Assembly: GCF_000220835.1 (NCBI RefSeq)
Contig: NZ_GL985606.1
Span: 242,065 to 291,164, forward strand
Direction: 5' to 3'
DNA: 49,100 nucleotides
DNA from: Actinomyces sp. oral taxon 448 str. F0400
GTDB taxonomy: Bacteria > Actinomycetota > Actinomycetes > Actinomycetales > Actinomycetaceae
A model generated the notes under the pieces. It did no database searches, had not been told where the DNA came from, and saw only the letters and a list, made by a program, of their open reading frames with translations. Below are positions 2,635-31,371 of this stretch, piece after piece. How positions within the stretch are numbered: position 1 is the stretch's first letter; each line of letters begins with the position of its first letter. Made by a program: the position numbers and the translations under genes.

Positions 2635-2829
2635 TCAACCGATGGGCGAGGCGGTGACGGTCCCGTTAGGCGGGTAGATCGCCTCCTGTTCAGGCGGGCC
2701 GGAGGTGGCCGCATGGATAATGCCCGCAACAGCTTTCAGCATGGGAATGAGGACCGTATCGGTCGGGTCACCGGACCATTGAAGTCTATCTTCTCCGATC
2801 ACGCGCACGGAGAGCTCATAACCATTCAT
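2635..2829 (-). pseudogene. C-terminal fragment of a lipoprotein gene (copy of 5329-5520)
   Basis: This frame encodes about 64 residues nearly identical to the C-terminal end of the lipoprotein at 5329-6060. Shared segments include NGYELSVRVIGEDRLQW against DGYELSVRMIGGNRLQW, LIPMLKAVAG and GPPEQEAIYPPNGT. Nucleotide similarity continues a few bases past the stop. The signal peptide and the first ~180 residues are missing. The upstream end joins directly onto a truncated 5' end of a different lipoprotein gene (2826-2927) through an ATGA overlap. It is best read as a recombination remnant and is unlikely to make a functional exported protein. Confidence 0.75.
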
Positions 2830-2927
2830 CGTCCCCGACACCACACGCCCGCCCCGCGCCCGCCCCGCGCCGGCCGGCCGAAGACGGGAAGGACGTGGTG
2901 GCGCATCGGGTATGAGTTATCCATCAT
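2826..2927 (-). pseudogene. Truncated 5' end of a fourth tandem lipoprotein gene
   Basis: The 33-codon frame starts MMDNSYPMRHHVLPVFGRPA, the same N-terminus as the two lipoproteins at 2924-3631 and 3628-4338. Its ATG pair overlaps the stop of the upstream gene (ATGA) as in the rest of the array. After about 20 codons the similarity ends, before the lipobox. The frame then runs through Gly/Arg codons to a TGA at 2826, which overlaps the first ATG of the lipoprotein fragment downstream. The junction shows that a fourth array unit was deleted and fused to the tail of another lipoprotein gene. Confidence 0.7.
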
Positions 2928-3631
2928 GGTGTGGGGGCGGGGTCGGTGGGGTACATGCTCCAGCGCTGCGCTGGCCCGTCGGCGGCCTGGGGGGCGGCCG
3001 GCCCGATCAAGGTGAACAGGTCCTCCAGGTCCGCGACGTCCTGCGTGAAAGAGACGGGGCTGTCTCCGGACGGATAGACTCTGCGGAGGGTGGCGACGGT
3101 ATCGGTGTCGGGGTAGGACCATACGAGAATGGCATGGCTGTGGTTGTCGGGGATGACCGCCCCCTGCCCCGGCACCGAGTCGAGGGTGACCGGCTCGGCC
3201 TTCGGAGCGGCGGCCACATCCTCGAAAGTCGAGCCCGTCGGGACGCTGTCGATGTTCCTGGGGTAGGTCGTGGTGACCCTCAGGTCGAAACGCCCGGTGT
3301 CGTTGCTGCCGGCCACGCCGATAGCGCACCACAGTGAGACGTGGTCCGGGGGGTCGGGGTTGTTGTTGATGGCGAAGCTGGGGATCTGACGGCCGGTGGT
3401 CTGCTGGATCTGGTCCACCGTGGCCAGGCCGCATACGGACACCTCCCCATCCAGAGGGGTCGGGGACGGAGAGGGCTCCGCTCCGCCCGTGCTGCGGCAG
3501 CCGGCCGAGACGGCCAGCACCGCACAGGCCAGACACGCCACCACACGCCCACTCCGCGCTGGCCGTGCGCCGGCTGGCCGGCTGAAGACGGGAAGGACGT
3601 GGTGGCGCATCGGGTATGAGTTATCCATCAT
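2924..3631 (-). CDS. Tandem lipoprotein, array copy 3
   Basis: A 235-aa lipoprotein with N-terminal extension MMDNSYPM, a hydrophobic signal (ACLACAVLAVSAGC) and lipobox SAGC. The mature domain starts at a conserved PLDGEVSVCGLATVDQIQ and carries AEPVTLDSVPGQGAVIPD and DLFTLIGPAAPQAADGP near the C-terminus. The start is the ATG at 3631, which overlaps the TGA of the preceding copy (ATGA); the open frame extends further upstream, but only as an out-of-frame reading of that gene. It aligns with the copies at 3628-4338 and 4335-4988. The ends are almost identical, while the middle (from INNNPDPPDHVSLW to YPRNIDSVP) differs. The layout, with an early Cys-containing helix, resembles DUF3558-type actinobacterial lipoproteins, but this is not verified. 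Confidence 0.8.
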   Translation of the reverse strand: MMDNSYPMRHHVLPVFSRPAGARPARSGRVVACLACAVLAVSAGCRSTGGAEPSPSPTPLDGEVSVCGLATVDQIQQTTGRQIPSFAINNNPDPPDHVSLWCAIGVAGSNDTGRFDLRVTTTYPRNIDSVPTGSTFEDVAAAPKAEPVTLDSVPGQGAVIPDNHSHAILVWSYPDTDTVATLRRVYPSGDSPVSFTQDVADLEDLFTLIGPAAPQAADGPAQRWSMYPTDPAPTP

Positions 3632-4338
3632 GGTGTGGGGGTGGGGTTGTGATCCCCGGTGGGGTACATGCTCCAGTGCTGCGTTGGTCCGTCGGCGGCC
3701 TGGGGGGCGGCCGGCCCGATCAGGGTGAACAGGTTCTCCAGGTCCGCGGCGTCCTGGAACAACCTGGGGCCCGCCGGCGGCCTGGAGTGGGTTCTTTTGA
3801 GGGTGGCGACGATATCGGTGTCGGGATAGGACCATACGAGAATGGCATGGCTGTGGTCGTCGGGGATGACCGCCCCCTGCCCCGGCACCGAGTCGAGGGT
3901 GACCGGCTCGGCATTCGGAGCGGCGGCCACATCCTCGAAAGTCGAGCCCGCCGGGACACTTCTGACGCTATCGGTAGAGGTCGTACTGACCTCCAGCTCG
4001 AAGACGCCGGTACCATCATCATCACTCACATTGATAACGCACATAAAAAACAGATTATTCGGGGTCCTGGAGTTGTTGTTAATGGCGAACTCCTCGATCT
4101 GACGGCCGACGGTCTGCTGGATCTGATCCACCGTGGCCAGGCCGCATACGGACACCTCCCCATCCAAGGGGGGCGAGGACGCCCCCGCTCCCCTTGTGCT
4201 GCGGCAGCCGGCCGAGACGGTCAGCACCGCACAAGCCAGACACGCCAGCACACGCCCACCCCGCGCCCGCCTCGCGCCGGCTGGCCGGCCGAAGACGGGA
4301 AGGACGCGGTGGCGCATCGGGTATGAGTTATCCATCAT
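3628..4338 (-). CDS. Tandem lipoprotein, array copy 2
   Basis: A 236-aa lipoprotein starting MMDNSYPMRHRVLPVF, with signal core ACLACAVLTVSAGC. The ATG at 4338 overlaps the stop of copy 1 by four bases (ATGA), and its own stop overlaps the start of copy 3 in the same way. Segments shared with the other copies are GEVSVCGLATVDQIQQ, FEDVAAAPNAEPVTLDSV, GQGAVIPDDHSHAILVWSYP and LFTLIGPAAPQAADGP. The variable middle part contains NNSRTPNNLFFMCVINVSDD. Coupled translation predicts similar amounts of all three proteins at the membrane surface. No enzymatic motif is seen, and a binding or immunity role can only be guessed from context. Confidence 0.8.
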   Translation of the reverse strand: MMDNSYPMRHRVLPVFGRPAGARRARGGRVLACLACAVLTVSAGCRSTRGAGASSPPLDGEVSVCGLATVDQIQQTVGRQIEEFAINNNSRTPNNLFFMCVINVSDDDGTGVFELEVSTTSTDSVRSVPAGSTFEDVAAAPNAEPVTLDSVPGQGAVIPDDHSHAILVWSYPDTDIVATLKRTHSRPPAGPRLFQDAADLENLFTLIGPAAPQAADGPTQHWSMYPTGDHNPTPTP

Positions 4339-4988
4339 GGTGTGGGGGCGGAATTGCGGTCGTCGGTGGGGTACATGCTCCAGCTCTGCTCTGGTCCGTC
4401 GGCGGCCTGGGGAGCGGCCGGCCCGATCAGGGTGAACAGGTCCTCCAGATCCGCGACGTCCTGGAACAACCTGGGGCCCGCTGGCGGCCTGGGATGGGTT
4501 CTTTTGAGGGTGGCGACAGTATCGGTGTCAGGGTAGGACCATACAAGAACAGCACGGCCGTCGTCATCGGGGATGACCGCCCCCTGCCCCGGCACCGAGT
4601 CGAGGGTGACCGGCTCGGCATTCGGAGCGGCGGCCACCTTCTCAAAAGTCGATGCAGCCGGCACGGTTCTGACGCTATCGGAAAATGTCGTACTGACCTC
4701 CAGAGCGAAAGTGTCGATACCTCTCTGACTAACCATGTAGATCTGACATTCAAACCCGAATATCCCAGAACGATGGGATGAGTTGTTGATGGTGAACTCC
4801 TCGATCTGACGGCCGGTGTTCTGCTGGATCTGGTCCACCGTGGCCAGGCCGCATACGGACACCTCCCCATCCAGAGGGGTCGGGGACGTCCCCGCTCCCC
4901 TTGTGCTGCGGCAGCCGGCCGAGACGGCCAGCACCGCACAGGCCAGACACGCCAGCACACGCCCACCTCGCGATGACGATTTACTCAT
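4335..4988 (-). CDS. Tandem lipoprotein, array copy 1 (first in array)
   Basis: A 217-aa lipoprotein (MSKSSSRGGRVLACLACAVL, lipobox SAGC). It lacks the MMDNSYPM extension of the other copies and so is probably the founder of the array. A GGGGGCT ribosome binding site lies just upstream of the ATG at 4988. The mature sequence follows the same plan as copies 2 and 3, with its own middle segment (NNSSHRSGIFGFECQIYM). The gene lies 12 bp after the orphan C-terminal-domain gene at 5001-5303, so the two are probably co-transcribed. Confidence 0.8.
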   Translation of the reverse strand: MSKSSSRGGRVLACLACAVLAVSAGCRSTRGAGTSPTPLDGEVSVCGLATVDQIQQNTGRQIEEFTINNSSHRSGIFGFECQIYMVSQRGIDTFALEVSTTFSDSVRTVPAASTFEKVAAAPNAEPVTLDSVPGQGAVIPDDDGRAVLVWSYPDTDTVATLKRTHPRPPAGPRLFQDVADLEDLFTLIGPAAPQAADGPEQSWSMYPTDDRNSAPTP

Positions 4989-5000: not shown

Positions 5001-5303
5001 TTAGTAATTCTTCGCATCTCTTTCACCATTAATATCTCCGCTTGAGTAGTTACCTGACAGATCTTTGGTGAGAGCATCGAGAGTGGTGTGATTGGAGGTG
5101 GAGGTCGGCGAAGTCTGCCTATCAGTCCAAGTCTTGACGTCCCGGTAGGTTTGTGCGTCCGCTCCATCAAGGTCGATCGTGTACCTGCCGGTGTCGGGAT
5201 CCTGGGTGATCCAGTCGTAGTCCGAGTCCGCCTTGGCCAGGTCCGCCTGGTCGATCAGGTCGGTGTCTTTCGCACGAACATCGGCCCGTCCCGGCTCGAA
5301 CAC
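5001..5303 (-). CDS. Orphan C-terminal domain of the large helical protein family
   Basis: A GTG at 5303 with a strong AGGAGG 5-6 bases upstream opens a 100-codon frame. The protein (VFEPGRADVRAKDTDLI...) matches only the last ~100 residues of the 766-aa protein at 6071-8371. The common pattern is LIDQADL with SDYDWITQDPDTGRYTIDL here, against LINQDSY with DRYNWIVDDGQGGYTIDL there. The longer open frame upstream of the GTG reads through the neighbouring lipoprotein gene and is ignored. It is either a remnant of a second large gene whose 5' part was deleted, or a stand-alone C-terminal module; the well-placed ribosome binding site suggests it is still translated. A lipoprotein gene follows at once, as after the full-length gene. 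Confidence 0.65.
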   Translation of the reverse strand: MFEPGRADVRAKDTDLIDQADLAKADSDYDWITQDPDTGRYTIDLDGADAQTYRDVKTWTDRQTSPTSTSNHTTLDALTKDLSGNYSSGDINGERDAKNY

Positions 5304-5328
5304 TAATCCTCCTCTCAGCCTATCATCG

Positions 5329-6060
5329 TCAGCCGGTGGGCGAGGCGGTGGCGGTCCCGTTAGGCGGGTAGATCGCTTCCTGTTCAGGCGGGCCGGAGGC
5401 AGCGGCATGGATAGTGCCCGCAACAGCCTTCAGCATGGGAATAAGGATCGTATCGGTCGGGTCATCGGACCATTGAAGTCTATTTCCCCCGATCATGCGC
5501 ACGGAGAGCTCATAACCATCAGGATAGCGCCACTTCAGGTAGTAGGAGGGTAAAGATAAGGAGAAGAAAGCCACTCCCTGGCCCTCCATGCCGTCGATAC
5601 TGACCTCGCGCACGTTTCTGACACTGCCTATAGCGTTGACATCATCGATAAGAGGCCGCTCCCGCGGCGAACTCCCATAGCTTATGTCGAACTGGTCGGC
5701 AGGGAAGTAGGCGTAGGGTGTCTTCGCAACGAGATCGATCAGGCATTCGAGCTCGACCCTGCCGTCATCGAGAGTGCTGCGATGGAAACTGATCCGCTTG
5801 AGTTGTTGGCCCTGGAGGATAGCCTCCATGTCCCCGGCGCTCATAATGTCACAGACGTTGACATCGTCGGTCACGAAGTTCTTCAAATCCTCGTCCTCGG
5901 CGGCATCAGCCGCCGAAGCGGACGCCGCGGACGCGGCGGACGCAGCGGCCGTGGCCCTGTCCTGGCGCCACTGCTGCACACGAGCACACCCCGACATCGA
6001 CATGCACACCACCAGCACGACCGCCAGCACCACGGCAGCCAATCCCCGACCCACCCGCAT
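5329..6060 (-). CDS. Lipoprotein paired with the large helical protein
   Basis: A 243-aa lipoprotein: MRVGRG, hydrophobic core VVLAVVLVVCM and lipobox MSGC, followed by a charged Ala/Ser-rich helix (ATAAASAASAASASAADAA) and a globular domain. The domain starts VNVCDIMSAGDMEAILQG and ends with SIDGMEGQGVAFF and LIPMLKAVAGTIHAA. The layout parallels the lipoproteins at 2924-4988 (early Cys helix, a central V..V-GQG-V strand pair, a closing helix), so they may be distant relatives. The ATG at 6060 follows a GGTGAG and gives a normal signal peptide. ATGs at 6078 and 6081 would overlap the upstream stop and remain possible. Its tail is duplicated as a fragment at 2635-2829. Confidence 0.78.
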   Translation of the reverse strand: MRVGRGLAAVVLAVVLVVCMSMSGCARVQQWRQDRATAAASAASAASASAADAAEDEDLKNFVTDDVNVCDIMSAGDMEAILQGQQLKRISFHRSTLDDGRVELECLIDLVAKTPYAYFPADQFDISYGSSPRERPLIDDVNAIGSVRNVREVSIDGMEGQGVAFFSLSLPSYYLKWRYPDGYELSVRMIGGNRLQWSDDPTDTILIPMLKAVAGTIHAAASGPPEQEAIYPPNGTATASPTG

Positions 6061-6070
6061 ACTCACAGAC

Positions 6071-8371
6071 TCACCCATCATCGTCCCCGCCACCGCTACT
6101 ACTCCCCCCACCACCGCTGTGAGGAACCGTACTCGACGAACCGGAAGCATAGCCCTGACCGGTCGCATTCTTAATGCTCTCGTTGATCGTGCTCAGGCTG
6201 GCATCCGGCGGGACGCTATCCTTGCGAGACTCATCGGTGACTTGGCTCACCCAGGTGGAGACACTACTCATTCCCCCTGCGGGAGTGCCGGACAGGTCGA
6301 TGGTGTAACCGCCCTGTCCATCATCAACAATCCAATTATACCGATCCGCCGCAGTCGGAACATCTGATTTGTCGGGATCGGTAGTGGGACCGACCTGGTA
6401 GGAATCCTGGTTGATCAGCCCAGCCTGGGCGGCGTCCTGAACGGCGGCCGCTCGCATGCCGTCGGTCAGAGTCAAGGACACCGGTGAGCTGGCCGCCTGC
6501 GGGTCATCGACCAGTGCATCGGCGGCGACCGGGGCTAGGAGTGTGCCTCCCGTCGCCGTTGCCGCCGCCGCTAGGGTCCCGGCCGGGGGCGGCAGTGCCG
6601 ATAGCCCGCCGGCCGCCGCCGTGGTGAACGCCGAAATCACCGTCTTCGCATTCCCGTTCAGTTCCTTCGTCTCGTCGATGTCCTTGATAGTCTTGTCCTT
6701 GGCGCGGGAGTCAGCGATCCCCACCAGGTGAGATACCGCCTGCGCCCCATCACTGTAGACGCCGCTGATCGAGCTGAGCTGCAGATCGGGACTGCCCTCG
6801 TTGAACGCGACCCCGCTCGCGGAGCGATCCGAGGCATGAGCGGCGATACCCGCAGCAATACTGCCCGTCGCGTTCGCACAGTCCGCCACCCGATAGGCCA
6901 GCGTATCCAAGTCTCCGGTTGTGGCCGTCCCCAACTGGGTGCCGTCACGATCGATCAACGCATCCGGATTCTCCGCGTCGGTACCATGGATATCCTGCCC
7001 CCAGGCAGCCGTGACCTCGTTGGGGCAGTTGGCCAGAAGGACTCCGATATGAGATTTGGTGTCGTCGGTGTAATTCTTGGCGTCCGTGTTCTGGGCCAGG
7101 TCGTGGATGCCATGACCGGCCAGGGACGTGGCCCGCGCGGCTTGGTCGTCGTCCTCGCTGGCGCGCAAGGAGGATCCGGCTGCCAGGGCCGCAGTGAACC
7201 CGGATAGGCCCTCCCTGCCCCAGTCGCGGGCCGACAGGTCATCAATACGACTAGTGTCGACTGAACCGTCGCCGCCGGCTGGCGCCAGGTAGCCCAGAGC
7301 GGCGCCGGGGTTGCCGCCCATGGCATCCAGGACTCCGGTCATGGGATCGTGGGAGTGGCCGGGCAGGGTCAGATTCGTGTCCTTGCCTTTGGTGAAGGTC
7401 TCATACTGAAACCATGACACGAGGTCGACCGGTATCGTGAAGGTGTCGGCTTGGGTGGCCGCCGTGGCGTCGATGTCGTCGAGTTTGTTGGCCAGGTCGA
7501 CCAGGAACGTGTCGTTGAAGTTCAGGTCGCTAACACCGTCACCGTTGTCGTCATGACCGCCAAGAATCGCGTTCAACGCTGAGATCCTGGGATACTCATT
7601 CTCCTCATCAACCGACCCGGAGATGGCGTCGGCGATCTCCTGGGACTTCTCCTCGTTCCAGATGCTTGACGCGCTAGCCAGCATCGTCCCCAGCTGCGAG
7701 GCGAGGTCCTCGGCCTTCTGCCCTTTGACATCCGGATAATTGGAACTGAGCTGCCTGTAGGCGTTGATCGGCAGGCTAGTCAGGTTCTCCGGGCCGATTT
7801 CGGTGATGACGGCGTTGGCGTAGACGGGATTACCCTGGTTGTCCGTCATGGAGGCCATAATGTCATCGATGGTGCGGCCGTCGTCAGTTTTTCCATCGTT
7901 GGAGGTGGTGGCCTGGGTCAGGGCGTCGGCGTCGGCTCGGGCGGTGGCGGCGACCTCGAAATTGTAGGTCTCGATGTTGTCAGCGGTGTCGGAGATTCCG
8001 TCGGGCAGACAGTAGTTCACTGTTCCGTCGGCATTGGTGGTGGTCAATCCGTTGGAGTTGAGGTCGAGGATCTGCTGACGCCGGTAGTTCAGGTCGTCGA
8101 TGACCGCGTAGAGGGTACTGATGGCCGATCCCAACTCGGGGACGTAGGTGTTATCTCCGGATAGGGTTCCCGATTGCCTCGCGGCGCCTATTATGGGAGC
8201 AGAGAGAACACACGAGGTGTGGGTGGCTTCTTCGACGCTGGGTACGGGATCGAGGGCGCCCGCGCTGGATGAACAAATGTTATAGCGCTCCTCCTCAGCA
8301 GCCTCGACGTATGCGGTCAGATTGCGAATGAGCACTAGCACGAGTTCGGGATTGAATGTGATGAAATACAT
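6071..8371 (-). CDS. Large helical protein, putative type VII secretion cargo (copy 1)
   Basis: A 766-aa protein preceded by AGGAGGAGT. No signal peptide or lipobox is seen. The N-terminal ~110 residues are predicted coiled helix, as in WXG/LXG-type type VII substrates, followed by NGLTTTNADGTVNY and a long Ala/Asp-rich helical region with short motifs shared by two paralogues at 24894-26830 and 27723-29834, for example PMTGVLDAMGGNPGAALGYL here against PLAGVVHAMTGNPQAAQKWL there. Residues ~570-600 are Ala/Gly/Pro-rich. The C-terminal domain has DRYNWIVDDGQGGYTIDL and ends in a Gly/Ser/Asp tail. I think this matches the actinobacterial family catalogued as DUF6571, but this is not verified. 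No toxin active site is recognised. It lies between a small helical protein gene and lipoprotein genes. Confidence 0.8.
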   Translation of the reverse strand: MYFITFNPELVLVLIRNLTAYVEAAEEERYNICSSSAGALDPVPSVEEATHTSCVLSAPIIGAARQSGTLSGDNTYVPELGSAISTLYAVIDDLNYRRQQILDLNSNGLTTTNADGTVNYCLPDGISDTADNIETYNFEVAATARADADALTQATTSNDGKTDDGRTIDDIMASMTDNQGNPVYANAVITEIGPENLTSLPINAYRQLSSNYPDVKGQKAEDLASQLGTMLASASSIWNEEKSQEIADAISGSVDEENEYPRISALNAILGGHDDNGDGVSDLNFNDTFLVDLANKLDDIDATAATQADTFTIPVDLVSWFQYETFTKGKDTNLTLPGHSHDPMTGVLDAMGGNPGAALGYLAPAGGDGSVDTSRIDDLSARDWGREGLSGFTAALAAGSSLRASEDDDQAARATSLAGHGIHDLAQNTDAKNYTDDTKSHIGVLLANCPNEVTAAWGQDIHGTDAENPDALIDRDGTQLGTATTGDLDTLAYRVADCANATGSIAAGIAAHASDRSASGVAFNEGSPDLQLSSISGVYSDGAQAVSHLVGIADSRAKDKTIKDIDETKELNGNAKTVISAFTTAAAGGLSALPPPAGTLAAAATATGGTLLAPVAADALVDDPQAASSPVSLTLTDGMRAAAVQDAAQAGLINQDSYQVGPTTDPDKSDVPTAADRYNWIVDDGQGGYTIDLSGTPAGGMSSVSTWVSQVTDESRKDSVPPDASLSTINESIKNATGQGYASGSSSTVPHSGGGGSSSGGGDDDG

Positions 8372-8442: not shown

Positions 8443-8916
8443 CTAGTACTGTCCCCAGTTGGCCTCGTCGCTGTGGGGCGGGACCTTCTCACCGGGGTCA
8501 CGCTTCTGGGTGTTCTCGGCGCTGGTCACGACAGCGACGAGGGCATCGAGCACAGCGGTGATCGAGTCGATGGCGGAGTTGATCCGGTACTGATACTCCA
8601 CGGCGGTGTCGGAGTTCCATGTCTCCTCGTCCAGGGCAGTCCTGAAGCTGTCGGGGCCCGCGCCGCCGACGACGACGGTCGGGTTGAGGCCGTCGGGGTC
8701 GGTGGCCGAGGGAACCGTCTGGGTGGAGGTCGTCCAGTCCTCGACTAGGAATGTTCTGGACTTCTCGATTTGTTCTTTGACATCACGGATTGCTTTGAGT
8801 TTGAGATTGTCCACCCAGTCGGGGTGATCCTCGACCGTACCGTCAGCGGGGGCGTCGTCCTGCGTGCTGGTATCGAGGGCCTCTTCGTCGGGTCCTGATG
8901 CGACTGCGTCGGTCAT
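8443..8916 (-). CDS. Small acidic helical protein, possible WXG-like partner
   Basis: A 157-aa protein starting MTDAVASGPDEEALD. AAGGAG lies 7 bases upstream of the ATG at 8916, so the longer frame to 8973 is not used. The first ~45 residues are acidic and probably disordered. Helices follow (KLKAIRDVKEQIEKSRTFL and YRINSAIDSITAVLDALVAV), with Trp at VEDWTTS and ETWNSD. It lacks a clean WXG motif but has the size and two-helix layout of ESX-type partner proteins. It sits between the type VII ATPase gene (66 bp upstream) and the large helical protein gene (71 bp downstream). A chaperone or co-secreted partner role is inferred only from context. Confidence 0.7.
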   Translation of the reverse strand: MTDAVASGPDEEALDTSTQDDAPADGTVEDHPDWVDNLKLKAIRDVKEQIEKSRTFLVEDWTTSTQTVPSATDPDGLNPTVVVGGAGPDSFRTALDEETWNSDTAVEYQYRINSAIDSITAVLDALVAVVTSAENTQKRDPGEKVPPHSDEANWGQY

Positions 8917-8982
8917 GGCGGGTTCTCCTTCAGAGGTTATGGTTAGTGTATTCGATGCGGTGGGCGTGTTCAAGTGTTGTGT

Positions 8983-11900
8983 TCATTTGTTTTGTTGGGG
9001 TGATGGTGTGCGGGGGATTTGGATCCAGGTCCAGCCGGTGGGGGTGGTGAGGATGGCGCGTCCGGGTGGGACGGGAGCGCCGATGGATCGGGGAAGGCGG
9101 GCGCCGAGTAGTTGGCCGTCGGAGGAGTCGCGGGGGGCGAGAATGAGGCCGGTGCGGTTTTTACGTACGGAGGCTAACAGGCCTGAGGCCATGCCCATGG
9201 CCTCGTCGATGTTGCAGGTGATAATGACGCCGCCGGGGTGGTCGCGGCAGGCGCGCATGTAGGTTTCCGCTTCTTTGGCCAGGGGGTGTGTTTTGCCGAG
9301 GGTGTCGAGGTCGTCGATGATGAGGAGGGTGTTGTGGTTGTTGTTCAGGAGGGTGGTGAGGTCGTCAGCTGTGTTGGTGGTGTCGAGGGTGGCGGTGATG
9401 GCGGGGTGGTGGGCGTAGTCGGTGAGGGGGGTGCGGCGGGGGGTGATGAGGATGGTGGGTGTGTGGTGGGCGAGGGTGGTGTGGAGGATGAAGGTGAGGG
9501 CGGTGGAGCGTCCGGAGCGGCGGGGGCCGGTGATGAGAATGCCGTTGCCGGCGTCTTCCATGGTGGTGGTGTGGATGTGGAGGGTGTCGCCGCCGATGCC
9601 CAGGGGGAGGTGGTCGGGTGGTGGTGTGGGGCCCAGGGCGAGAGCTTCGGGGGTGGTGATGGTCAGGGGGAGGTCGTCGATGTGGGGTGGTTGGCGGTGT
9701 GGTGGTGGAGTGGGCCAGCGGGTGGTGGCGGTGCGGGCGTGGTGGTAGAAGGCGGTGGTTTGGGCGGTGCCGGTGGGGGTGGTGTCGAGGAGGGGGGTTT
9801 GGACTTCTCGGGGATGGGATGGTCCGGTGCGGAAGGCGCGGCCGGGAGGCATGGTGGCGGGCACGTCGCGGGCGCGCATGCCGACCAGGTCGAAGGAGTC
9901 GGGGGTGGGCATGCGGAAGATGAGGCGGTCTTCGAGGAGCATGCCCATGTGGGAGCGGAAGGTGGTGCGGTCCCCAGTGATGGCGGCGCGCAGCCCCATG
10001 GCGGCGCCTTCGCGTAGCAGGATGCGGATCTGTTCGAGGATTTTGCCGCCGTCGACGGTTTCGTAGACGGTGGTCAGGCCATCCCAGCGGTCGATGAGGA
10101 GGATGAGGTAGGGCAGGCGGTCGTCGGGGTCGGCGGCGGCGCGTTGTTCGGCCAGGGAGGTGTGGCCGGCGGCGGCGAGGGTTTGCTGGCGGGTGGTGAT
10201 CTGGGTGGTGAGTTTGGTCAGGAGGCGGCGCAGGCGGTCGGATTGGTCGCGGGTGATGATGGCGCCGGTATGGGGCAGGCTGATCAGGGGCAGCAGGCCG
10301 CCCGAGCCGGCGTCGATGCCGTAGATGTGGGCGTCGGCGGGGGAGGCGGTGGTGGCGATGCCGGTGGCCAGGGCGCGTAGGAAGGTGGTGCGGCCGGTGC
10401 GGGGGGCGCCGGCTATGCCCAGGTGGCCGGTGCGCGTGTAGTCCCAGGTCATGGGCCGCTGGGCCTGTTCGGAGGGGATGTCCTCCAAACCGATGATCAG
10501 CGGCGGCAAGAACCCGGCCCCGCCGCCGGTGTGAGCCCCGGCCTTGGCCTCGCCGCCGGTGTCGCCGCCGGTGTCGCCGCCGGCCTCAGCCTCACCGTCA
10601 GCCTCGCCGTCGGCCTCGGCCCCGCCGTCAGTGTCGGTGGCCTCGGCCTCGCCGTCGGTGGTGTTAGTGGTGAGGGCGGTCAGGGTGATGGCGTCGGGCA
10701 GGGGCGGGAGCCAGGGTTGGTGGGGGGTGGGGCCGTGAGTGTCGTGGTGGGCGGTGGTGGTGGCGGTGACGAGGTCGGCGAGATCGGTGGGGGCGTTGGT
10801 GTCCTGGGTGCTGGTGGGGGCGGCGGGCGCGGGGCGGGTCAAAAGGGCCAGGTGCAGGGGATGGACGCGGGGGCGGGGCTGGTGGATTGTGTGCGGGCGG
10901 TGTCCTCCGATGCGGGAGGCTTGGAAGGCCAGTAGGCGGCCGTGTCCGAGCCGGGCGTAGGCCCGGCCGGGCAGGGCGGGCGGGATGTGGGCGGCGTCGG
11001 GGGCCTCGATCACGTCCTGGGAGTCGGATTCATCGGTTACGCGCAAAGCGATGCGCAGGTTGGTGTTGGATCTGATATCGGCTGAGACGACGCCGGCCGG
11101 TCGTTGGGTGGCCAGAACGAGATGAACGCCCAGGGATCGACCGCGTCGAGCAATATCGACCAGGCCGGTGACGAAATCGGGCAGTTCGGTGATCAGAGCC
11201 GCGAATTCATCGATGATCAGCACGAGCCGGGGCATAGGATCGGTAGCGGCGTGGGCGGTAGCGGCGTAATCGTCGACGTCTTTGGCTCCCGCGCGAGCCA
11301 GTTGGCGTTCGCGGCGGCGTAGTTCGGCTCCTAGGGAGTCCAGAGCGCGGGAGGTCAGGTGCCCGTCGAGATCGGTGACCATGCCGACGGTGTGGGGCAG
11401 GTGGGCGCAGTCCTTGAAAGCCGCTCCGCCTTTGTAGTCCACGAGGACGAAGGTCATGGCCTCAGGGGTGTTGGCCGCGCATAGTCCCGCGATCAGAGTC
11501 TGGAGGAGCTCGGATTTGCCCGAGCCGGTCGTGCCCGCGACCAGAGCATGAGGACCATCAGCGCGCAGATCGATGCTGAACGCGCCCTCGGCGTCCTCGC
11601 CCACGGTCACGCGAGTCGAACGCCCACCACTGGACGCCCACCAGCCGGCCACCAGCCGGGGATCGGGGCGCCCGTCCACGCCCATCACATCCAAAAGCCG
11701 CGAAGCGCGGGGAATCGCGCCCTGGGCCCCCTGAGCGGAAGCGTCGCGCACCGGCGCCAGGCACCGGGCCATCCGCTCGGCCCATTCAAGCGACGGGGCA
11801 TCGAGCCTGACCTGCTCGACCGGGTCAGCGCCAGCGACCCACACCTGGGCCAACGGGTTCTGGGCCGAGACCACGGCCCGGCACTCCTCGGGCAGACTCA

Positions 11901-18354: not shown

Positions 18355-18404
18355 GATTATCTCCTTTCAACACAGGATAAGAACGGGGGAAGAGCAGAGT
18401 CGGG

Positions 18405-23068: not shown

Positions 23069-23074
23069 CCCCTT

Positions 23075-23166: not shown

Positions 23167-23188
23167 CCGCACCATCCTTGCGGTGCGG
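23167..23188 (+). promoter_or_regulatory. Leader hairpin before the WXG100 gene
   Basis: CCGCACC and GGTGCGG form a 7-bp stem with an 8-base loop, 45 bp upstream of the ATG at 23234 and so probably within the 5' untranslated region. Its role is unknown; it may be an operator half-site pair or an mRNA stabiliser. Confidence 0.3.
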
Positions 23189-23233
23189 TCCCGGCGTCAG
23201 ACCGGACGCCATCCCTGCGAACGAGGAGCACCT

Positions 23234-23536
23234 ATGCCACTTTCATCAGATCTGACCACTCTACAGACCCTGCACAGCACGCTGTCGGGGGACGTCGACT
23301 CGGCCCACTCGATCGTCTCGGGCACCGACACCTCACTGGCATCCGCGGTGTGGGAAAGCCCGAACGCCGACTCTTTCCGGTCGGCCTGGGACGAGTTCCG
23401 TCCGAAGCTGATCCAGTTCGAGCAGGTCCTGGCCAGCGCCGCCTGCGATGTGGCGAACAACCACAACAACATCGCGGAGGCTAACGGCGTAACCGACCAG
23501 CCCGAGCTGCCGCAGGTCGAATCCTACGACGCCTGA
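23234..23536 (+). CDS. WXG100-family protein (ESAT-6-like)
   Basis: A 100-aa helical protein, the standard WXG100 size. The turn motif is W40-E-S (AVWESPNADSF), followed by AWDEFRPKLIQFEQVL in the second helix. The ATG at 23234 has GAGGAG at the right distance. WXG100 proteins form helical-hairpin dimers exported by type VII systems, so this is probably a substrate of the ATPase at 8983-13815. It is monocistronic, divergent from the pilus operon and followed by a very strong terminator. Confidence 0.88.
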   Translation: MPLSSDLTTLQTLHSTLSGDVDSAHSIVSGTDTSLASAVWESPNADSFRSAWDEFRPKLIQFEQVLASAACDVANNHNNIAEANGVTDQPELPQVESYDA

Positions 23537-24893: not shown

Positions 24894-26830
24894 TCACCCG
24901 CCCCACGAGTGCGCCGGCGCTCCACCGCTAGACGGCTTGGCCGCTTCATAACCGTCTTTGAAAGAAGAGTATCTCGTGTCTGTGTAATCAAGAGTGCCGT
25001 CGGCGCGGTGGTAGAGGTAACCGCCAACCCGGTCGAGGCCGGCCTTGACGCCAGTATCTTCAATCTCGGACGGATCCATGCCTACCGTCAGAGGGTTCCC
25101 ATCCTCGTCGACCACCCGATCCGTCTGACGGTTTTTCCCGCTGTCGCGGACGGCTCCCAGCAGATCATCCGAATCATACAGACCGCTGTTGAGAAGGGAG
25201 GCGGTGAGCTGCTCATAATTCTGCATGAGCGCCGCATCTTTCATGTCCTGGACCCCCGAGCTCGCACTGGATTCCTGATCCTCATTGAACGGCTGAGCGT
25301 CGTTCACCATTTGATATCCTGCAGCGCCGGCGAAGAACCCGTTGGTCCTGCACTGAGCGTCGACCGCTGCATCCACGGGTGTGAAGTCTCCCGAATCCTT
25401 GTACGTGGCGACGGCGTCGTCGAACACCTTCTGATTGTAGACGGTCACCGATTCTCCGAGGCGACTGGACGCGGTCTCATTGTAGGAGATCTGACCGACG
25501 AGATTCGACAGGGCCCGGTTAGTGAAGAGCGGCCTGTAGTCGTACGTCGTCGTCCCATCATCCGCTTCCATTTCCCCGGAGCTGACGGGACTCTTCGAAT
25601 TCGTCGAATCCGTGGATTCGACGACGCTGTCCGGGTGGTTCGCGAGCGTTTCCGACACGAGGTTCCTCACCCCATCGGGCAGGGTCACGGGCTTCTCGCT
25701 GCTCCCAATGCCGTTGAGAATCCCTGAAATGGCTGTCGCCGAGGCGTAATCCTGGTAGGACCTCTCCTCCTGACTCATCGCCGCCGGGTCCGATGAAACC
25801 CAGCCCTGGGAGTCGATCTCATAGGCCATCGTCGCCCAGTCGGTGGCCCATCCTTTCTCCTTCAGGGAGCCCCAGCCGACCAGATCCTGCACGCGTCGAA
25901 CGGTCTCCTTCGTTTGCCTTAGCGAAGCGGGATCCGGCGCCCCCTGCCCGTCAGGGCGGGCGACCAGCCATTTCTGCGCCGCCTGAGGATTGCCGGTCAT
26001 AGCATGGACGACGCCCGCGAGCGGATTACCGGAGTAAAGGTTCTCCGGGAGGAAGGGGGAGTCATTCGGAGGGTTGCTCAGGCGGTTCAACCAATCCCTT
26101 GGGCTGGTGTTATCCCACTTCTGCGGCGAGTAGTTCTCCATGCGCTGGGCCAGGGTGGCCAGCATCGAGTCACTGTAATCCAGGCCCACAGACTCAGCCG
26201 TCCTGTCTCCATTGCCGCTCCGCGAGGCCATCAGCATGCCGTTGAGAGCCTTGAGGCGTTCGGACTTGCCCTTCTCCTCGGTGGCGTCCACAAGTTTGTT
26301 AGTATAGTCGGCCGCCTGATTGTCCGGCCAGGTGTACGACGCGGTCGCCAGATTATGGCCGAGCGCGCTGGTCAGATCCTGGGCGGCCTCAGGGCGCAAA
26401 GACCAGTCCGTCTGGTCCTTCGCATCCCTGGCCGTCATCTTATTCTGAATGTCCGCGGGCAGATCGAGAAGTCGTCCCGGGTCGATATCGGCCAGCAGAG
26501 CATTGGCGTAGGCCGGATCGTCCTGACCGGCCTGCACTCGGGCCAGAAGAGCATCCCAATCGTCAGGAGCGCAACCGCCTTCGCATAATCGGAGAGCGAA
26601 GCGGCATCCTCCCGAGCCTGGCTGTCGGTATCAACATTGTTGGACGCTGCCGCATTCTCCGCGCCAGCCTCTCTGCCGTCCCAAACGATATAGGAAATGG
26701 ATCCGTTCGCGCCGGTGGTGGTTAGCCCGCTCTCAACAGCCGCATCCAGCCGCCTTCGCGGACTCGCGTCCTCGTCCTCCAGGTCAACGAAGGACAGGCC
26801 GACAATGCTCGAAAGACACGACTCCACTCA
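24894..26830 (-). pseudogene. Large helical protein, copy 2, frameshifted and 5'-truncated
   Basis: The frame from 26537 to 24894 encodes 547 residues related to the large proteins at 6071-8371 and 27723-29834, with shared features such as PLAGVVHAMTGNPQAAQKWL and the C-terminal YLYHRADGTLDYTDTRYSS. The family N-terminal part continues upstream in another frame (26435-26827), containing RRRLDAAVESGLTTTGANG, which matches RRQQILDLNSNGLTTTNADG of copy 1. The frames switch near 26570-26600, between SLSDYAK and DDWDALLARVQAGQDD, so one indel breaks the gene. The first ~70 residues of the family are missing, apart from a possible trace in a third frame near 26800-26870 (AATAVEDEWSRVFRALS). A sequencing error could explain the frameshift but not the lost N-terminus. 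Confidence 0.78.
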
Positions 26831-27332
26831 TCCTCGACCGCGGTGGCGGCGTCGGTTGACCCACGATGGGAACCTACTTCCTGTGCGGGGACACACGTCA
26901 GTCTCAACACACCCTACTACCCGGACCCCGTCGTCAATCAACCCCTCCCCCTCGGAGCATCGCACCCCACCGCGCGGCATGGTGGGAACCGCACGCGCCC
27001 CGAGCCGCCGCACCGTCGTTCAGTCGGTGAGACGCAGGCCGCCCGAGCACGTCGAGCGGCGGCTGGTGCGGTCGGGGCGGGGCCGGGGCCGGCGGCGACA
27101 CCCTCCACATCTACACCACCACCCCAACAAATGAACAACCATTGCACGCAACAGACGCCGCGACCGACGCACATACCACCATCCAGATGAAGAAGACCAG
27201 CGGCACGCTCTCACGGACCCATTCTCCACCACCAGGACACGACAATCCGGACCACCATCCACGGTGGACCCACAGTGTTGAACGTGATAAACTAGTAAGT
27301 GTGAACACGAGCTACTGACCTTGGAGTATCTC
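26831..27332. other. Gap between pseudogene and third module, with ATPase gene relic
   Basis: No intact gene is seen. The left part may hold decayed 5' sequence of the damaged large gene. At 27091-27123 a 33-base stretch matches the ATPase gene (9562-9594, other strand) with a single mismatch and would encode GGDTLHIYTTT, against GGDTLHIHTTT in ATPase domain 3. Similarity does not extend clearly on either side. The right part should contain the promoter of the 27333 gene. Confidence 0.45.
27264..27293 (+). promoter_or_regulatory. Weak promoter candidate before the third module
   Basis: GTGGAC (27264-27269), an 18-base spacer and TAAACT (27288-27293) resemble a sigma-70-type promoter with a good TANNNT -10 and a weak -35. 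It would place the transcript start about 30-35 bases before the GTG at 27333. Confidence 0.25.
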
Positions 27333-27665
27333 GTGCCTAACCTAAAACACAATGCTTACCGGGACAGCCTGGTCGCACACCAGACAACCGCGGACGAGTA
27401 CTACATGGACATGTGCGGGGACGACGGGATGTCCAACCCCTGCTCCAGCACGACCAAGACCATCAGCGATGGGGCGTGGGTCTCACCGTCCGCGGACAAA
27501 TGGTGCATCCATATGGAGACACTGGGTAAATACATCAAAGACTCCTTCGATCTGTACTCCGTCGATGTCTCGGACGCCGTGGCAGCGGAGCCGGAGGACA
27601 TAGATGTCGATACTGATACTGACAACACGTGGAAAGTAGATTGGGTTGACCCCGCCACCTGGTGA
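27333..27665 (+). CDS. Small WXG-like protein of the third module
   Basis: A 110-aa protein starting at a GTG with GGAG about 8 bases upstream; an in-frame TTG at 27321 is less likely. The first helix has LVAHQTTADEYYMDM, the turn contains GAWVSPSADKW (compare AVWESPNADSF of the WXG100 protein at 23234) and a second helix follows. Three Cys and an acidic C-terminal stretch (EPEDIDVDTDTDN) are unusual for WXG100 proteins. It lies 57 bp before the 703-aa large protein gene, mirroring the 8443-8916 and 6071-8371 pair. It is probably a partner or co-substrate in type VII export. Confidence 0.78.
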   Translation: MPNLKHNAYRDSLVAHQTTADEYYMDMCGDDGMSNPCSSTTKTISDGAWVSPSADKWCIHMETLGKYIKDSFDLYSVDVSDAVAAEPEDIDVDTDTDNTWKVDWVDPATW

Positions 27666-27722: not shown

Positions 27723-29834
27723 GTGACAGAAATCAAAGCGAATCTGGACGATCTCCGTGCGACCGCCGCCAGTCTAAAGACCACGGCGACGTCCGTGGAG
27801 GACAGATACAACGACCTGTACTCAACAGCGAAGACGCTGGATTTACCCAGAACACGTCTTCTGGGTCTGCCGGGTTACGTCGAGAGTCTGCGTGATGAGG
27901 CCTCGTTCCTGAGCGCCAAGGCCGACTGGCTGGAGATCGTCAACACTGGCGACGACGGCACCGCTCCCACCGGGACCGTCACCTACGAGATCCCTTCCGG
28001 CCTCAAAGATCCGACGAATCTGGCAAGCATGGAGCACTGGTTGGGGCAGGCCATCGCTGATACCGCCGAGGACCTGACTGCTTCCGACTACAAGGAGAAC
28101 GATCCTCGCATGGAAGCCCTCCATCGTCAGATGGAGCGGTGGAAGGACGACGAGAGCGTCATGTCCTCGATGTACACCGACCTGGGCCCTGAGGGAGTCC
28201 TCGCCCTCACCCGGGCCGTCGGTGTGCATGCGACCAATCAGGCAAGCGAAGAAGAGACGGAAACAGCGAAGACGCTACTCACAGACATCAAGGGAGGGCT
28301 GGCCGCGGCAACCAACAGCTGGCCCTCTTCCCAGGCCCAAGAGTTCGGTCGGCGACTCGTAAACTCCGCCAGAGAACCCGACCAGAACGAAGACTCTGAT
28401 ATTTTCGGATCAACCTCTCAAACAGACGCGCTCAACTGGCTTCTGTACAACAACACCGACGCCAGCAATGCCTTCATTCTCGGCGTCGCCGAGAAAATGG
28501 ACGAGATCCAGCAGCAGGACAACGCTCAAGGAATCAGTGACGGTTGGTCCTGCGAACCACTCAGTTTCCTTTCCTCCATGGTCGACGAGGCGGACAGGAT
28601 CTGGATGTTCGACACCCCCTCGGTCGTCCTTCACGCCCTAGGTGACCATGGGCAGGCCGCTTACCAATTCTTCAATGGAAACGAGTATCGGTTGACTTAC
28701 TGGCCCGCTGAGCACGACTACACCAGAGGAGATTACTCAGGTATTGCAGCCGCGCTGGACGCGGCCTCCACTACCCCGGCCGTCATGAGCAATGATCCGG
28801 CAGGCGCCGGCACAATTGCCTCCTACGGAGTCAACGGTCTCATGGGCCGCGACGACATCGGACCATACCTGGACAAAGATCCCAGCGGTCATTTCAAATT
28901 TTCTGGCGTACAAGGTACAGAAACCACGTCATCCATGGAACATATCCTTGAAAATTATTTGTTTTCCGTTGGAAATTCATACGCAAATAATGGAGGAGAT
29001 AGAGAGACCCCTAAATCTGATGATGACGAAGATGGCGTACCCGACCAACTCTGCACAATCTACGGACCTGCCGGAGAGGCGACGCCAAGCGCTCCATGGT
29101 TCGGCACCGATGCTCTCAACAAAGCTCTCGGTCTCATCGGCCGTGATCCGCAATCCATGCTCAATATGCGTACGAGCGTGTCCAATGCCGAGACACAAGG
29201 AATCACTCCAGGAATGAACGATGAAAGTTTTGGAAGCACGATAACCTACTGGGCTGGGGTTGAGGGCGCCTTCTCGAATGCCATTGGGACAGGCGCCATC
29301 GATGATGCCGAGGCCAGAGACGAGTGCGCTCGGGCCTGGATCGAGCTCGGATCAACCGGCGCTGATCAGCTGACTGACATGGCACAAAGCAAGGGAGTTC
29401 CTAATGTAGCGGGGCTGGCTGCTGACGAGTTCATTGATTTACTCGCCAACAAGGCGAAGGATAGCTGGGCGAGTAACACGTCAGACGAAACAAAACGGCA
29501 GACCGAGCTGGCTGACCAAGCCTTGTCCGACTACCGGCTGAGGATGCTGTTCGCTTGCGATCAGGCCGGTATGAACGGTTACCAGGAGCGCGACGCGGAG
29601 GGCAATCTGACACAGCCCTTAGACGAGGCCGACGGAGCCGCCGCCGTCGAGCAATCAGACGGCAGTTATCGACTCATTACGGAGGATGAGTTCAACGCCC
29701 TGCCCGAGGATAAACGCTCCACGGTGGCGCCGACACTCAACAGCCTGGCGGACAGCCTGAAGGGCCTGGGTGCTCATATGCTGACCAGCGACATCAAGGA
29801 CGCTTTCAACACCGAGTTTCTGGAGAAGTTCTGA
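27723..29834 (+). CDS. Large helical protein, putative type VII secretion cargo (copy 3)
   Basis: A 703-aa protein starting at a GTG with AAAGGA upstream. The N-terminal ~110 residues are coiled helix (TEIKANLDDLRATAASLKTT), as in WXG/LXG-type secreted proteins. Next come PTGTVTYEIPSGL and the same helical body as the paralogues, including PSVVLHALGDHGQAAYQFFNG and YSGIAAALDAASTTPAVM. The C-terminal domain has SDGSYRLITEDEFNALP and ends in LEKF. There is no signal peptide, and no toxin motif is recognised. Its stop overlaps the start of a membrane-anchored protein gene (TGATG). Part of the coding sequence (about 28880-29030) is notably AT-richer and ends in an acidic loop (KSDDDEDGVPD). Confidence 0.82.
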   Translation: MTEIKANLDDLRATAASLKTTATSVEDRYNDLYSTAKTLDLPRTRLLGLPGYVESLRDEASFLSAKADWLEIVNTGDDGTAPTGTVTYEIPSGLKDPTNLASMEHWLGQAIADTAEDLTASDYKENDPRMEALHRQMERWKDDESVMSSMYTDLGPEGVLALTRAVGVHATNQASEEETETAKTLLTDIKGGLAAATNSWPSSQAQEFGRRLVNSAREPDQNEDSDIFGSTSQTDALNWLLYNNTDASNAFILGVAEKMDEIQQQDNAQGISDGWSCEPLSFLSSMVDEADRIWMFDTPSVVLHALGDHGQAAYQFFNGNEYRLTYWPAEHDYTRGDYSGIAAALDAASTTPAVMSNDPAGAGTIASYGVNGLMGRDDIGPYLDKDPSGHFKFSGVQGTETTSSMEHILENYLFSVGNSYANNGGDRETPKSDDDEDGVPDQLCTIYGPAGEATPSAPWFGTDALNKALGLIGRDPQSMLNMRTSVSNAETQGITPGMNDESFGSTITYWAGVEGAFSNAIGTGAIDDAEARDECARAWIELGSTGADQLTDMAQSKGVPNVAGLAADEFIDLLANKAKDSWASNTSDETKRQTELADQALSDYRLRMLFACDQAGMNGYQERDAEGNLTQPLDEADGAAAVEQSDGSYRLITEDEFNALPEDKRSTVAPTLNSLADSLKGLGAHMLTSDIKDAFNTEFLEKF

Positions 29835-30583
29835 TGCGTTCGCGATGGTGGCGAGTGGTCGTGGTTGTTCTCGTAGTGGCCGTGGGCGTGGGCGTGTACG
29901 AGTACAAGGCGAGCACGCGAAAGAACGAGACGGAGAAGGACACCTCCCCCCTGCGTTCGCTGATGCTGACCCGTCAGGACATCCCCGACGCCACCGACAT
30001 CACCTGGTATGACACCAGCGGATCCCAGAGTAACTGTCCCCAGGCGGATAGCATCGTCCACATCACTACCTCCTGGGTGCCCGAGACCCACTTGACTGTC
30101 GAGCGCATCGAAACCGGCAGCGCCTCCGTCACCGAAGCCCTCGTGCTCAACATCAACGAACCCTCGCCGGGCGATCGGGTCCGACGGCTGCGCGACGCCG
30201 TCGCTGAGTGCGAAGGCACCACCGATACTGTGTATCTATGGCCCGACCAGCCCACACCCGCCCCGGGCCAGGACACGATCGTGACCATCACGTCCCTGGA
30301 CCCGGCCGGTCTGCCCGACGGCGCTTTCGGCTTCCACCAGACCGCCACCGCACAGGTCGAAACCGGACCCGCAACAACGGCCATCGACACGGTGTACGCC
30401 CCCGTGATGCACGACGACCAACGAGGCATCATCATGGTGCGCACCGCCGTCCCCGACGACGGCACCCCCGCCCCCGACATCACCGACCTGCTCACCACCG
30501 CCCTCCACCGCGCCGACGCCACCCTCGACCTCACCCAACTCACACCCCGACCATCGGCTTCAACCACCAGCCCAACACCATGA
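29834..30583 (+). CDS. Membrane-anchored surface protein, tandem copy 1
   Basis: A 249-aa protein with a single N-terminal membrane helix (MRSRWWRVVVVVLVVAVGVG), no lipobox and an extracellular domain. Two Cys (SNCPQAD and AECEGTT) could form a disulfide. The fold resembles PknH-like extracellular sensor domains, but this is uncertain. Its ATG shares one base with the large protein's stop. It is followed by a second copy (30634-31371) with nearly identical ends and a divergent middle. By position it corresponds to the lipoproteins after the large protein at 6071-8371. Confidence 0.8.
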   Translation: MRSRWWRVVVVVLVVAVGVGVYEYKASTRKNETEKDTSPLRSLMLTRQDIPDATDITWYDTSGSQSNCPQADSIVHITTSWVPETHLTVERIETGSASVTEALVLNINEPSPGDRVRRLRDAVAECEGTTDTVYLWPDQPTPAPGQDTIVTITSLDPAGLPDGAFGFHQTATAQVETGPATTAIDTVYAPVMHDDQRGIIMVRTAVPDDGTPAPDITDLLTTALHRADATLDLTQLTPRPSASTTSPTP

Positions 30584-30633
30584 TCCCAGGCATGAGACAC
30601 ATCCGTGAGAAGAAGCGAGAAGGAGACGTTCTA

Positions 30634-31371
30634 ATGCGTTCGCGATGGTGGCGAGTGGTCGTGGTCGTTCTCGTGGTGGCCGTGGCCGTGGGCGTGTACG
30701 CGCACAAGATGAGCACGCGAAAGAACGAGACGGAGAAGGACACCTCCCCCCTGCGTTCGCTGATGCTGACCCGTCAAGACATCCCCGACGCCACCGACAT
30801 CACCTGGCCCACGGGGACGGAGCAGATGAGCATCTGCTACGCCGACTCCACGCTCGACGCCACCATCTCCCAGACGCCCAAGACCTCCTCCATCGAGCGC
30901 ATCGAAACCGGCAGCGCCTCCGTCACCGAAGCCCTCGTGCTCAACATCAACGAACCCTCGCCGGGCAGCCAGGCGCGATGGCTGCGCGACGCCGTCACCG
31001 ACTGCGACGGGATCACGTCAGCACAGCCCTACTTATGGCCCAGCTCGCCCACGCCCTCGTCAGGCCAGGACGTGTCCATGACCATCACGCTCCTGGACCC
31101 GGCCGGCCTGCCCGACGGCGCTTTCGGCTTCCACCAAACCGCCACCGCGACCCGTGCCACCACCGTCAACTGCGACATCCTGTACGCCCCCGTGATGCAC
31201 GACGACCAACGAGGCATCATCATGGTGCGCACCGCCGTCCCCGACGACGGCACCCCCGCCCCCGACATCACCGACCTGCTCACCACCGCCCTCCACCGCG
31301 CCGACGCCACCCTCGACCCCGCTCAACTCACACCCCCGGCACCATCTCCGACCACCAGCCCGACGCCATGA
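30634..31371 (+). CDS. Membrane-anchored surface protein, tandem copy 2
   Basis: A 245-aa paralogue of the preceding protein: the same MRSRWWRVVVVVLVVAVAVG anchor and STRKNETEKDTSPLRSLMLT stem, the same SASVTEALVLNINEPSPG and the same C-terminal HDDQRGIIMVRTAVPDDG. It differs between TDITW and IERIE (PTGTEQMSICYADSTLD instead of YDTSGSQSNCPQADSI) and before LYAP. The ATG has AAGGAG about 9 bases upstream. The open frame to 30208 is the first copy read in another frame. Confidence 0.82.
   Translation: MRSRWWRVVVVVLVVAVAVGVYAHKMSTRKNETEKDTSPLRSLMLTRQDIPDATDITWPTGTEQMSICYADSTLDATISQTPKTSSIERIETGSASVTEALVLNINEPSPGSQARWLRDAVTDCDGITSAQPYLWPSSPTPSSGQDVSMTITLLDPAGLPDGAFGFHQTATATRATTVNCDILYAPVMHDDQRGIIMVRTAVPDDGTPAPDITDLLTTALHRADATLDPAQLTPPAPSPTTSPTP

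Follow-up and report, generated by a model that had tools for sequence, protein, structure and literature searches.

What do the products of a repeatedly occurring gene arrangement in Actinomyces sp. oral taxon 448 str. F0400 do, and by which route might they leave the cell? The question is raised by a 49,100-nucleotide stretch of its genome (assembly GCF_000220835.1, contig NZ_GL985606.1, positions 242,065 to 291,164 of the forward strand; hereafter the window), in which an initial annotation made from the letters alone had described three loci combining a small helical protein, a large helical protein and surface-anchored proteins near a type VII-like ATPase. The open reading frames (ORFs) of loci 1, 2 and 3 were recovered where that annotation had placed them, and the module of small helical gene, signal-less large gene and anchored proteins proved to be real and recurring. 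Its large proteins belong to the Pfam family DUF6571, and the reading that we favor, with a probability of roughly 0.5, is a polymorphic, contact-dependent effector or recognition system with predicted type VII-like export and lipoproteins as putative immunity or docking partners.

DUF6571 proteins define a recurring module

At loci 1 and 2 the large proteins were identified as DUF6571 (PF20211) by hmmscan, with E-values of 2e-137 and 7e-158, respectively. A divergent family member is the 703-amino acid (aa) protein of locus 3, detected in the genome search at 51.5 bits (E = 5.2e-14, cut-off 27) and by a DUF6571 profile built in this analysis (E = 2e-13), with no Pfam family matched in hmmscan at E ≤ 0.01. 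At this limit DUF6571 was the only Pfam family in the 766-aa protein of locus 1 and in the locus 2 protein; hence no LXG domain was found in any of the three. All 69 relatives of the 766-aa protein returned from 7997 scored candidates contain DUF6571, and every name given among them is Actinomyces. Across the bacterial family of the source genome DUF6571 was present in 10 of 151 genomes and 3 of 35 genera, and a count over the genus Actinomyces gave 27 of 49 genomes with 1 to 19 matches each, 26 of them above the family cut-off and one (G163) below it. The source genome itself holds 18 matches at several places, including two arrays of copies, so that the layout is not confined to the two intact occurrences first reported. 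The term DUF6571 was found in no paper of the open-licence PubMed Central library. DUF6571 proteins with a differing N-terminal part occur in two other genera of the family (loci L070 and L071), and transposase-like genes, recognized by eye, adjoin several modules (L051, L062, L069, L071), consistent with gain and loss.

Locus 1, encoded entirely on the minus strand, illustrates the arrangement. Its full-length DUF6571 protein (6071..8371; such copies are hereafter termed HEADs) comprises an N-terminal helical hairpin (residues ~1-106), a middle part (~107-330) and an exchangeable C module (~331-746); in its AlphaFold model, with a predicted local distance difference test score (pLDDT) of 80, the hairpin helices span residues 8-38 and 76-106. 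Upstream lies the small helical partner (8443..8973), a member of the small-partner alignment with an invariant W119 (motif ETWNSDTA) and no match to a named family; the gene reported initially as encoding 157 aa is present as a 176-aa ORF, the shorter length fitting an inner start. Directly after the HEAD follows a lipoprotein (5329..6168) which the alignment places in a family denoted L and which is 20-24% identical to the other three L proteins of the locus. These are tandem copies sharing 67-78% mutual identity, at 4335..4988 (predicted model pLDDT 82), 3628..4338 (assigned by the L alignment and pairwise identity) and 2924..3835 (homologous part beginning at ~3631). Between the first L gene and the tandem copies an orphan DUF6571 C-end piece (5001..5423; 40% identity over 47 aa to HEAD residues 667-712) is the remnant of a body copy; it is a DUF6571 profile match downstream of the HEAD with no signal sequence seen, and the 140-aa ORF picked for it gave no profile match at E 1 when searched alone.

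In order to establish the composition of the module, stretches around DUF6571 matches were fetched and analyzed with a simple ORF picker, which yielded 44 full-length HEAD copies (41 distinct) in 37 loci. The picker reported no DUF6571 gene in nine loci with DUF6571 matches (L050, L062, L066, L070, L071, L084, L087, L088, L093); L070 and L071 were read by hand, and the remaining seven lie outside the 41 HEADs. Upstream of 35 of the 41 HEADs lies a small ORF carrying a W-x-[SGT]-x-x-[AST]-type motif; by comparison the motif, which was picked after the sequences had been seen, occurs in 15 of 348 ORFs of 70-260 aa outside this set. By profile the small partner was found for 38 of 41, a figure to be read with the fact that the profile was built from 31 of the genes it then finds (7 of the 10 others were recovered). 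The HEADs lacking a profile match are those of L019 and L094 and the third gene of L083; at L019 a short upstream ORF retains only the C end of the L018 small partner. The underlying alignments comprised 31 of 33 reference sequences for the small partner and 38 of 50 (one duplicated) for L.

Within 9 kb downstream of the HEAD an L-family match was present in 30 of 41 cases, a body copy in 17 and either of the two in 35 (34 of 41 when the distance is restricted to 1.5 kb); the figure of 30 is an upper one, as the matches at L077 and L079 fall on body ORFs and the profile was built from the L genes of these loci. The possibility, raised with the initial annotation, that homologs usually occur without such partners is not borne out by these counts, and the further one, that they carry Sec signals, is not borne out for the full-length form (see below). 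Nor are the anchored partners unrelated between loci, as had been stated: the lipoproteins of locus 1 and of most other loci form one family in tandem arrangement, reaching eight consecutive L ORFs (nine L profile matches) at L058 in genome G142, and the pair at locus 3 is the exception. Only one of 38 L proteins matched the DUF3558 profile (E = 0.0038), and L was not assigned to that family.

Hairpin and Sec signal not seen together

The absence of signal peptides noted for the large proteins agrees with the wider set: no HEAD out of 41 passed the test for an N-terminal transmembrane (TM) or general secretory (Sec) segment at a threshold of 2.0. The top value, 1.99, derives from an over-long ORF start ahead of the domain (L083, 4802-7255), and the next, 1.71, belongs to the 766-aa protein of the window. 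In 25 of 37 body-only copies, by comparison, a TM/Sec segment lies just ahead of the domain, in many cases with a lipobox. These 25 copies start at only two places of the profile, positions 102-118 (n = 6) or 312-329 (n = 19), the former being where the AlphaFold model has the N-terminal hairpin end. No copy thus showed both features, since no signal was found in the HEADs and the signal-bearing copies lack the hairpin. A locus from another genus, L071, presents a similar picture, with an 896-aa copy without a signal followed by four tandem copies with lipoprotein-type starts.

The small partner varies with the same end of the protein. Across 35 pairs its distances correlate with those of HEAD residues 1-106, 107-330, 331-600 and 601-746 at r = 0.83, 0.78, 0.54 and 0.44, respectively, and the corresponding partial correlations, uncorrected for kinship, are 0.59, 0.35, 0.12 and -0.04. 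Because the co-variation is strongest with the N-terminal hairpin, the small partner tracks the front of the HEAD, as an export partner would.

These observations also bear on whether the HEADs leave the cell at all. They might be cytoplasmic scaffolds, the Sec-bearing copies being unrelated later recruitments; export of the HEADs is, after all, inferred, and their N-terminal domain is recognized by profile neither as WXG100 nor as LXG. We give this account little credence, as it leaves unexplained why hairpin and Sec were found together in none of 41 HEADs while 25 hairpin-less body copies carry a signal, and why the signal-less copy of L071 precedes four with lipoprotein-type starts.

An EssC-like ATPase in a Tad-type locus

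The window encodes an EssC/EccC-like ATPase of 1610 aa (8983..13815, minus strand; TIGR03928 E = 5.6e-158), located between a BTAD-like gene and the module of locus 1, with Tad genes beyond. It is a multi-domain ATPase of the EccC/EssC type that characterizes type VII secretion systems (T7SS), and it scores below the equivalog cut-offs of both TIGR03928, the T7SSb EssC model (528 vs 778 bits), and TIGR03924 (387 vs 509 bits). Among five N-terminal parts of such ATPases no FHA family was found and one weak PF16697 match was seen; PF16697 is listed for some relatives. The neighboring genes, likewise on the minus strand, encode a BTAD-like membrane protein (13863..16658; PF03704 E = 0.0023, under the cut-off), three TadE-like proteins (16684-17322, 17217-17705 and 17702-18373, the second by PF07811 and the other two by position and sequence), TadC- and TadB-like membrane proteins (18405-19421 and 19328-20206; PF00482), a TadA-type ATPase (20203..21522; PF00437) and, in 21519..23068, a CpaB/SAF-like protein (PF08666 for 22286-23068) and what we take to be a TadZ-like protein, for which no family match was obtained. 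At the far end of this locus a small gene on the plus strand (23183..23536) is the WXG100 gene proposed initially. The gene is there, and its resemblance to WXG100 is weak: TIGR03930 matches under its cut-off (E = 1.7e-4), PF06013 reaches 19.4 bits (E = 0.0013) against a cut-off of 27.3, and the gene is absent from the four matches of the genome search.

Searches with tblastn separate Actinomyces ATPases of this kind into class 1, to which that of the window belongs (961-1758 bits), and class 2 (278-518 bits); the ATPase of G095, at 530 bits, was assigned to class 1 by its BTAD-like and Tad neighbors. BTAD-like and Tad-type genes lie beside the class-1 ATPase in 20 of 22 genomes, the exceptions being G156 and G158 (in G158 the contig stops there), and a close TadA ortholog (84-91% identity, next best ≤43%) is present in 20 of 49 genomes, which are the class-1 set minus these two. 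Class-2 EssC-like ATPases without Tad neighbors also occur in Actinomyces (L098-L103, L106, L113, L114, L127-L130). The class-1 ATPase was found in 22 of 27 DUF6571-positive Actinomyces genomes and in none of 22 DUF6571-negative ones (Fisher p = 1.6e-9, phylogeny uncorrected), absence resting on fetched DNA for 6 of the 22 negative and 3 of the 5 positive genomes lacking it, and on the ranked TIGR03928 list and the TadA result for the rest. Among 11 genomes consisting of one contig, 9 have a DUF6571 gene no more than 16 kb away from the ATPase (random mean 0.60, maximum 5 in 20,000 draws). Both co-occurrence and linkage thus uphold the initial observation of a nearby EssC/EccC-like ATPase.

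The source genome also carries a canonical ESX-like locus (L020, 6243-18427), with an EccB assigned by family, EccD-like and 1904-aa EccC-like proteins recognized by eye, and two WXG100 genes. Its presence there makes it conceivable that the canonical EccB/EccC/EccD machinery exports DUF6571 proteins and that the Tad-linked ATPase is a bystander, and EccB is indeed somewhat commoner in DUF6571-positive genomes (10 of 27 vs 3 of 22, p = 0.10). Yet 17 of the 27 have no EccB, among them several many-copy genomes (G059, G107, G142, G166, G173), and we regard this explanation as improbable. Taken together, the signal-less HEADs, the small partner that tracks their front, the co-occurrence with the class-1 ATPase and the patchy distribution of EccB make type VII-like export of DUF6571 HEADs a well-supported inference.

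Exchange of the C module and its surface-anchored twins

The rear of the HEAD is exchanged between copies. At L083 two HEADs are near-identical up to residue ~330, beyond which 40-residue windows show 15-43% identity, and the HEAD of L074 joins a class-B front to a class-A rear: against L081, L082 and L072_8842 its N-terminal identity is 0.64-0.67 and that of the C core 0.28-0.29, whereas against L060 and L072_3267 the values are 0.26-0.27 and 0.57-0.58. The joint falls at residues ~343-365, inside the lowest-entropy block of the family (331-360), where A350 and M351 are invariant; in the L079/L080 pair the break point lies earlier, at ~180-195. The HEADs in this respect show the constant front and exchangeable rear of polymorphic toxins.

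The same C module may be found on both kinds of protein. The L083 locus has it in its second HEAD and in the anchored copy that follows: starting with the middle part, the identity of these two is mostly 90-100%, dropping to 65, 82, 36 and 75% in four 40-residue windows. Fusions are also seen: at L096 an L lipoprotein and a body copy form one protein, which adjoins a free L gene and a HEAD, and at L060 an L protein is joined to a piece of the DUF6571 C end.

A module that is both predicted to be exported and anchored could belong to a surface complex instead of a weapon, the exported DUF6571 protein docking on L and anchored bodies to build a variable layer or adhesive coat, perhaps with a Tad-type pilus, whose variation would be driven by host or phage pressure. 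The second HEAD of L083 and the gene next to it, the L-body fusion, a solenoid-like body in which no enzyme fold was found and the linkage to the Tad-type locus are all in keeping with such a complex. A patchy distribution (27 of 49 genomes, with 1-19 matches each), broken copies and tandem strings of lipoproteins, on the other hand, resemble conflict genes, and G156 has the ATPase and the module without a close TadA ortholog. On balance we consider a surface complex unlikely, albeit deserving of attention. Somewhat more doubtful still is a reading in which one polymorphic module would take two routes, type VII-like release or injection beside the Tad locus and display of its Sec-borne twins, as a kin-recognition system with a shuffling repertoire. 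Each strain would then carry on its own surface the module that it fires, and self would be told from non-self by contact of like with like or of twin with lipoprotein, and not through a plain toxin-immunity pair.

Proposed mechanism and points against it

In the effector or recognition system that we favor, the small partner would pair with the N-terminal hairpin of the HEAD, and the two together would be what the EssC-like ATPase of the Tad-type locus recognizes as an export signal, so that the solenoid-like DUF6571 body would reach the cell exterior. The C module, swapped between copies at the joint described above, would be the specificity part; the downstream L lipoproteins, on the outer face of the membrane, would bind it as immunity or docking proteins, and body-only copies would display the same module on the surface via Sec, as lipoprotein or TM-anchored forms. 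Secretion, binding and toxicity are in this scheme predicted from what can be read in the DNA, namely gene order, the presence or absence of signals, co-variation, linkage and module exchange. The secreted effector with membrane-bound cognate partners envisaged in the initial annotation remains the best fit, with toxicity itself only proposed. As a whole, that interpretation is partly supported; it overlooked the DUF6571 name, the Sec/lipoprotein body copies, the swapping of C halves and the Tad-type neighbors of the ATPase.

Several observations weigh against this scheme. As regards the effector, no recognized toxin domain was found by Pfam in the scanned proteins, C ends included, fold searches with a whole-protein DUF6571 model found no enzyme fold, and the C module is a single homologous family, not an assortment of unrelated toxins. 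A cell could hardly tolerate anchored body copies whose C module was by its own action lethal from the outside; these twins argue for surface contact of like with like, or of twin with lipoprotein, and against a module lethal outside by itself. Twelve of the 37 body copies have no signal by the TM test: two lie behind an L part (L060, L096), three are body-sized (L019 10443, L080 5967, L086 9523), one (L080 3853) scores 1.67, and the remainder, including that of locus 2, resemble fragments or cut ORFs. As regards the immunity or docking proteins, the L model resembles the type VI secretion immunity protein Tsi3 at a borderline score, a level that unrelated models often reach. Co-variation of L with HEAD regions (r = 0.31-0.40, partial correlations -0.10 to 0.18, in a set of 25 with at least three wrong members) has no specificity for the C module.

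As regards export, kinship of the small partners and the N-terminal hairpin with WXG100 is not provable by profile: PF06013 is not among the families matched by 31 small partners at E 0.1, the ESAT-6-like structure 4i0x appears at E = 0.053, ranked behind ApoA-I, and hhalign gives small partners versus WXG100 a probability of 2.6%, though the alignment falls on the W motif. The class-1 association was computed without regard to phylogeny, and five DUF6571-positive genomes with 1-2 matches each lack the class-1 ATPase (G148, G153, G162, G163, G180). Relatives of the ATPase were found in Cellulomonas, Jiangella, Kribbella and others; we know of no DUF6571 in those genera, where the ATPase presumably has other substrates.

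Other features of the window

Locus 2, on the minus strand, retains a broken DUF6571 gene, whose larger piece (24894..26537) matches an intact copy of the same genome, L017, at 74-95% identity per 40-residue window and whose N-side piece, in another frame (26435..26827), covers profile positions 69-130. Locus 3, on the plus strand, comprises a small partner that is a member of the small-partner alignment (27321..27665; GAWVSPSADKW), the divergent 703-aa protein (27723..29834), a protein with an N-terminal hydrophobic anchor (29834..30583) and its tandem paralog (30634..31371, start by homology), 75% identical to the first; one of the pair was tested against the L family and did not match. Just after locus 3 lies an S-adenosylmethionine riboswitch (RF00162, 47 bits, 32293-32383, plus strand), ahead of a set of genes resembling ABC transporters by eye.

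On the minus strand beyond locus 1, a lipoprotein (1624..2334) and a Sec-signal protein (644..1636) form a two-gene pair that often accompanies DUF6571 modules. The family of the Sec protein is present in 23 of 44 DUF6571 loci versus 5 of 46 other loci, some loci overlapping; among these five, three are class-1 ATPase loci, and the other two, L050 and L084, come from stretches chosen for their DUF6571 matches. The pair is probably a further component of the module.

Relation to known systems and significance

Among the nearest known systems are the LXG polymorphic toxins of T7SSb in Bacillota, with their Lap partners and immunity proteins, with which the module shares a signal-less large protein with N-terminal helices, a small helical gene on the 5' side, a partner on the 3' side and a constant front with a variable rear. 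The module differs in that no LXG domain was found, in a C module that is one family without a recognized toxin domain, in body copies re-routed via Sec, and in phylum and ATPase class. Rhs and CDI (contact-dependent inhibition) polymorphic toxins possess orphan cassettes, which the rear-half arrays behind a full-length DUF6571 gene and the exchange at a conserved joint recall; unlike these, many DUF6571 orphans carry Sec/lipoprotein signals of their own and look expressed rather than silent.

In Staphylococcus aureus the lipoprotein TilA partners the type VII substrate TslA and is encoded in tandem recombining strings beside it, according to PMC10730906, and TilA and EsaG show that recombining immunity genes in such strings are known to accompany type VII substrates (PMC10730906, PMC9484751). 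The tandem lipoproteins beside a predicted type VII substrate are alike; TslA, however, is a lipase whose domains stand in reverse order, and the Pfam matches of the L proteins do not include DUF576, to which TilA belongs. As regards the secretion system, Garrett 2024 (PMC11217815), in the sections considered, distinguishes T7SS variants c to j, of which g and h, from Bacillota, lie beside Tad pilus genes and have ATPases without FHA, and d is actinobacterial, with components including the kinase TsdD, TsdH and TsdI. The locus described here shares with T7SSg and T7SSh an EssC-type ATPase with adjoining Tad genes, although those are from Bacillota and this is from Actinomyces; with T7SSd it shares an EssC-type ATPase in Actinomycetota. 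The word Actinomyces does not occur in that paper. In the same open-licence library no Actinomyces literature describing a DUF6571 module system was found among the matches listed; PMC9436818 mentions Actinomyces, in the part consulted, in general statements, and the relevant text of PMC5720513 notes both a type VII system and two tad clusters in Actinotignum schaalii and draws no link between them.

Within the reach of these searches, the module of the family, the ATPase-Tad locus, the exchange of C modules at a joint and the Sec-anchored twins are new, the anchored twins being the novel part. If the proposed reading is true, Actinomyces carry a type VII-like class of substrates with an ATPase of its own, and the natural swap of an N-terminal hairpin for a Sec signal is unusually clean evidence for the role of the hairpin. 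The twins and the exchange joint would then open type VII specificity and self-recognition in actinobacteria to direct tests.

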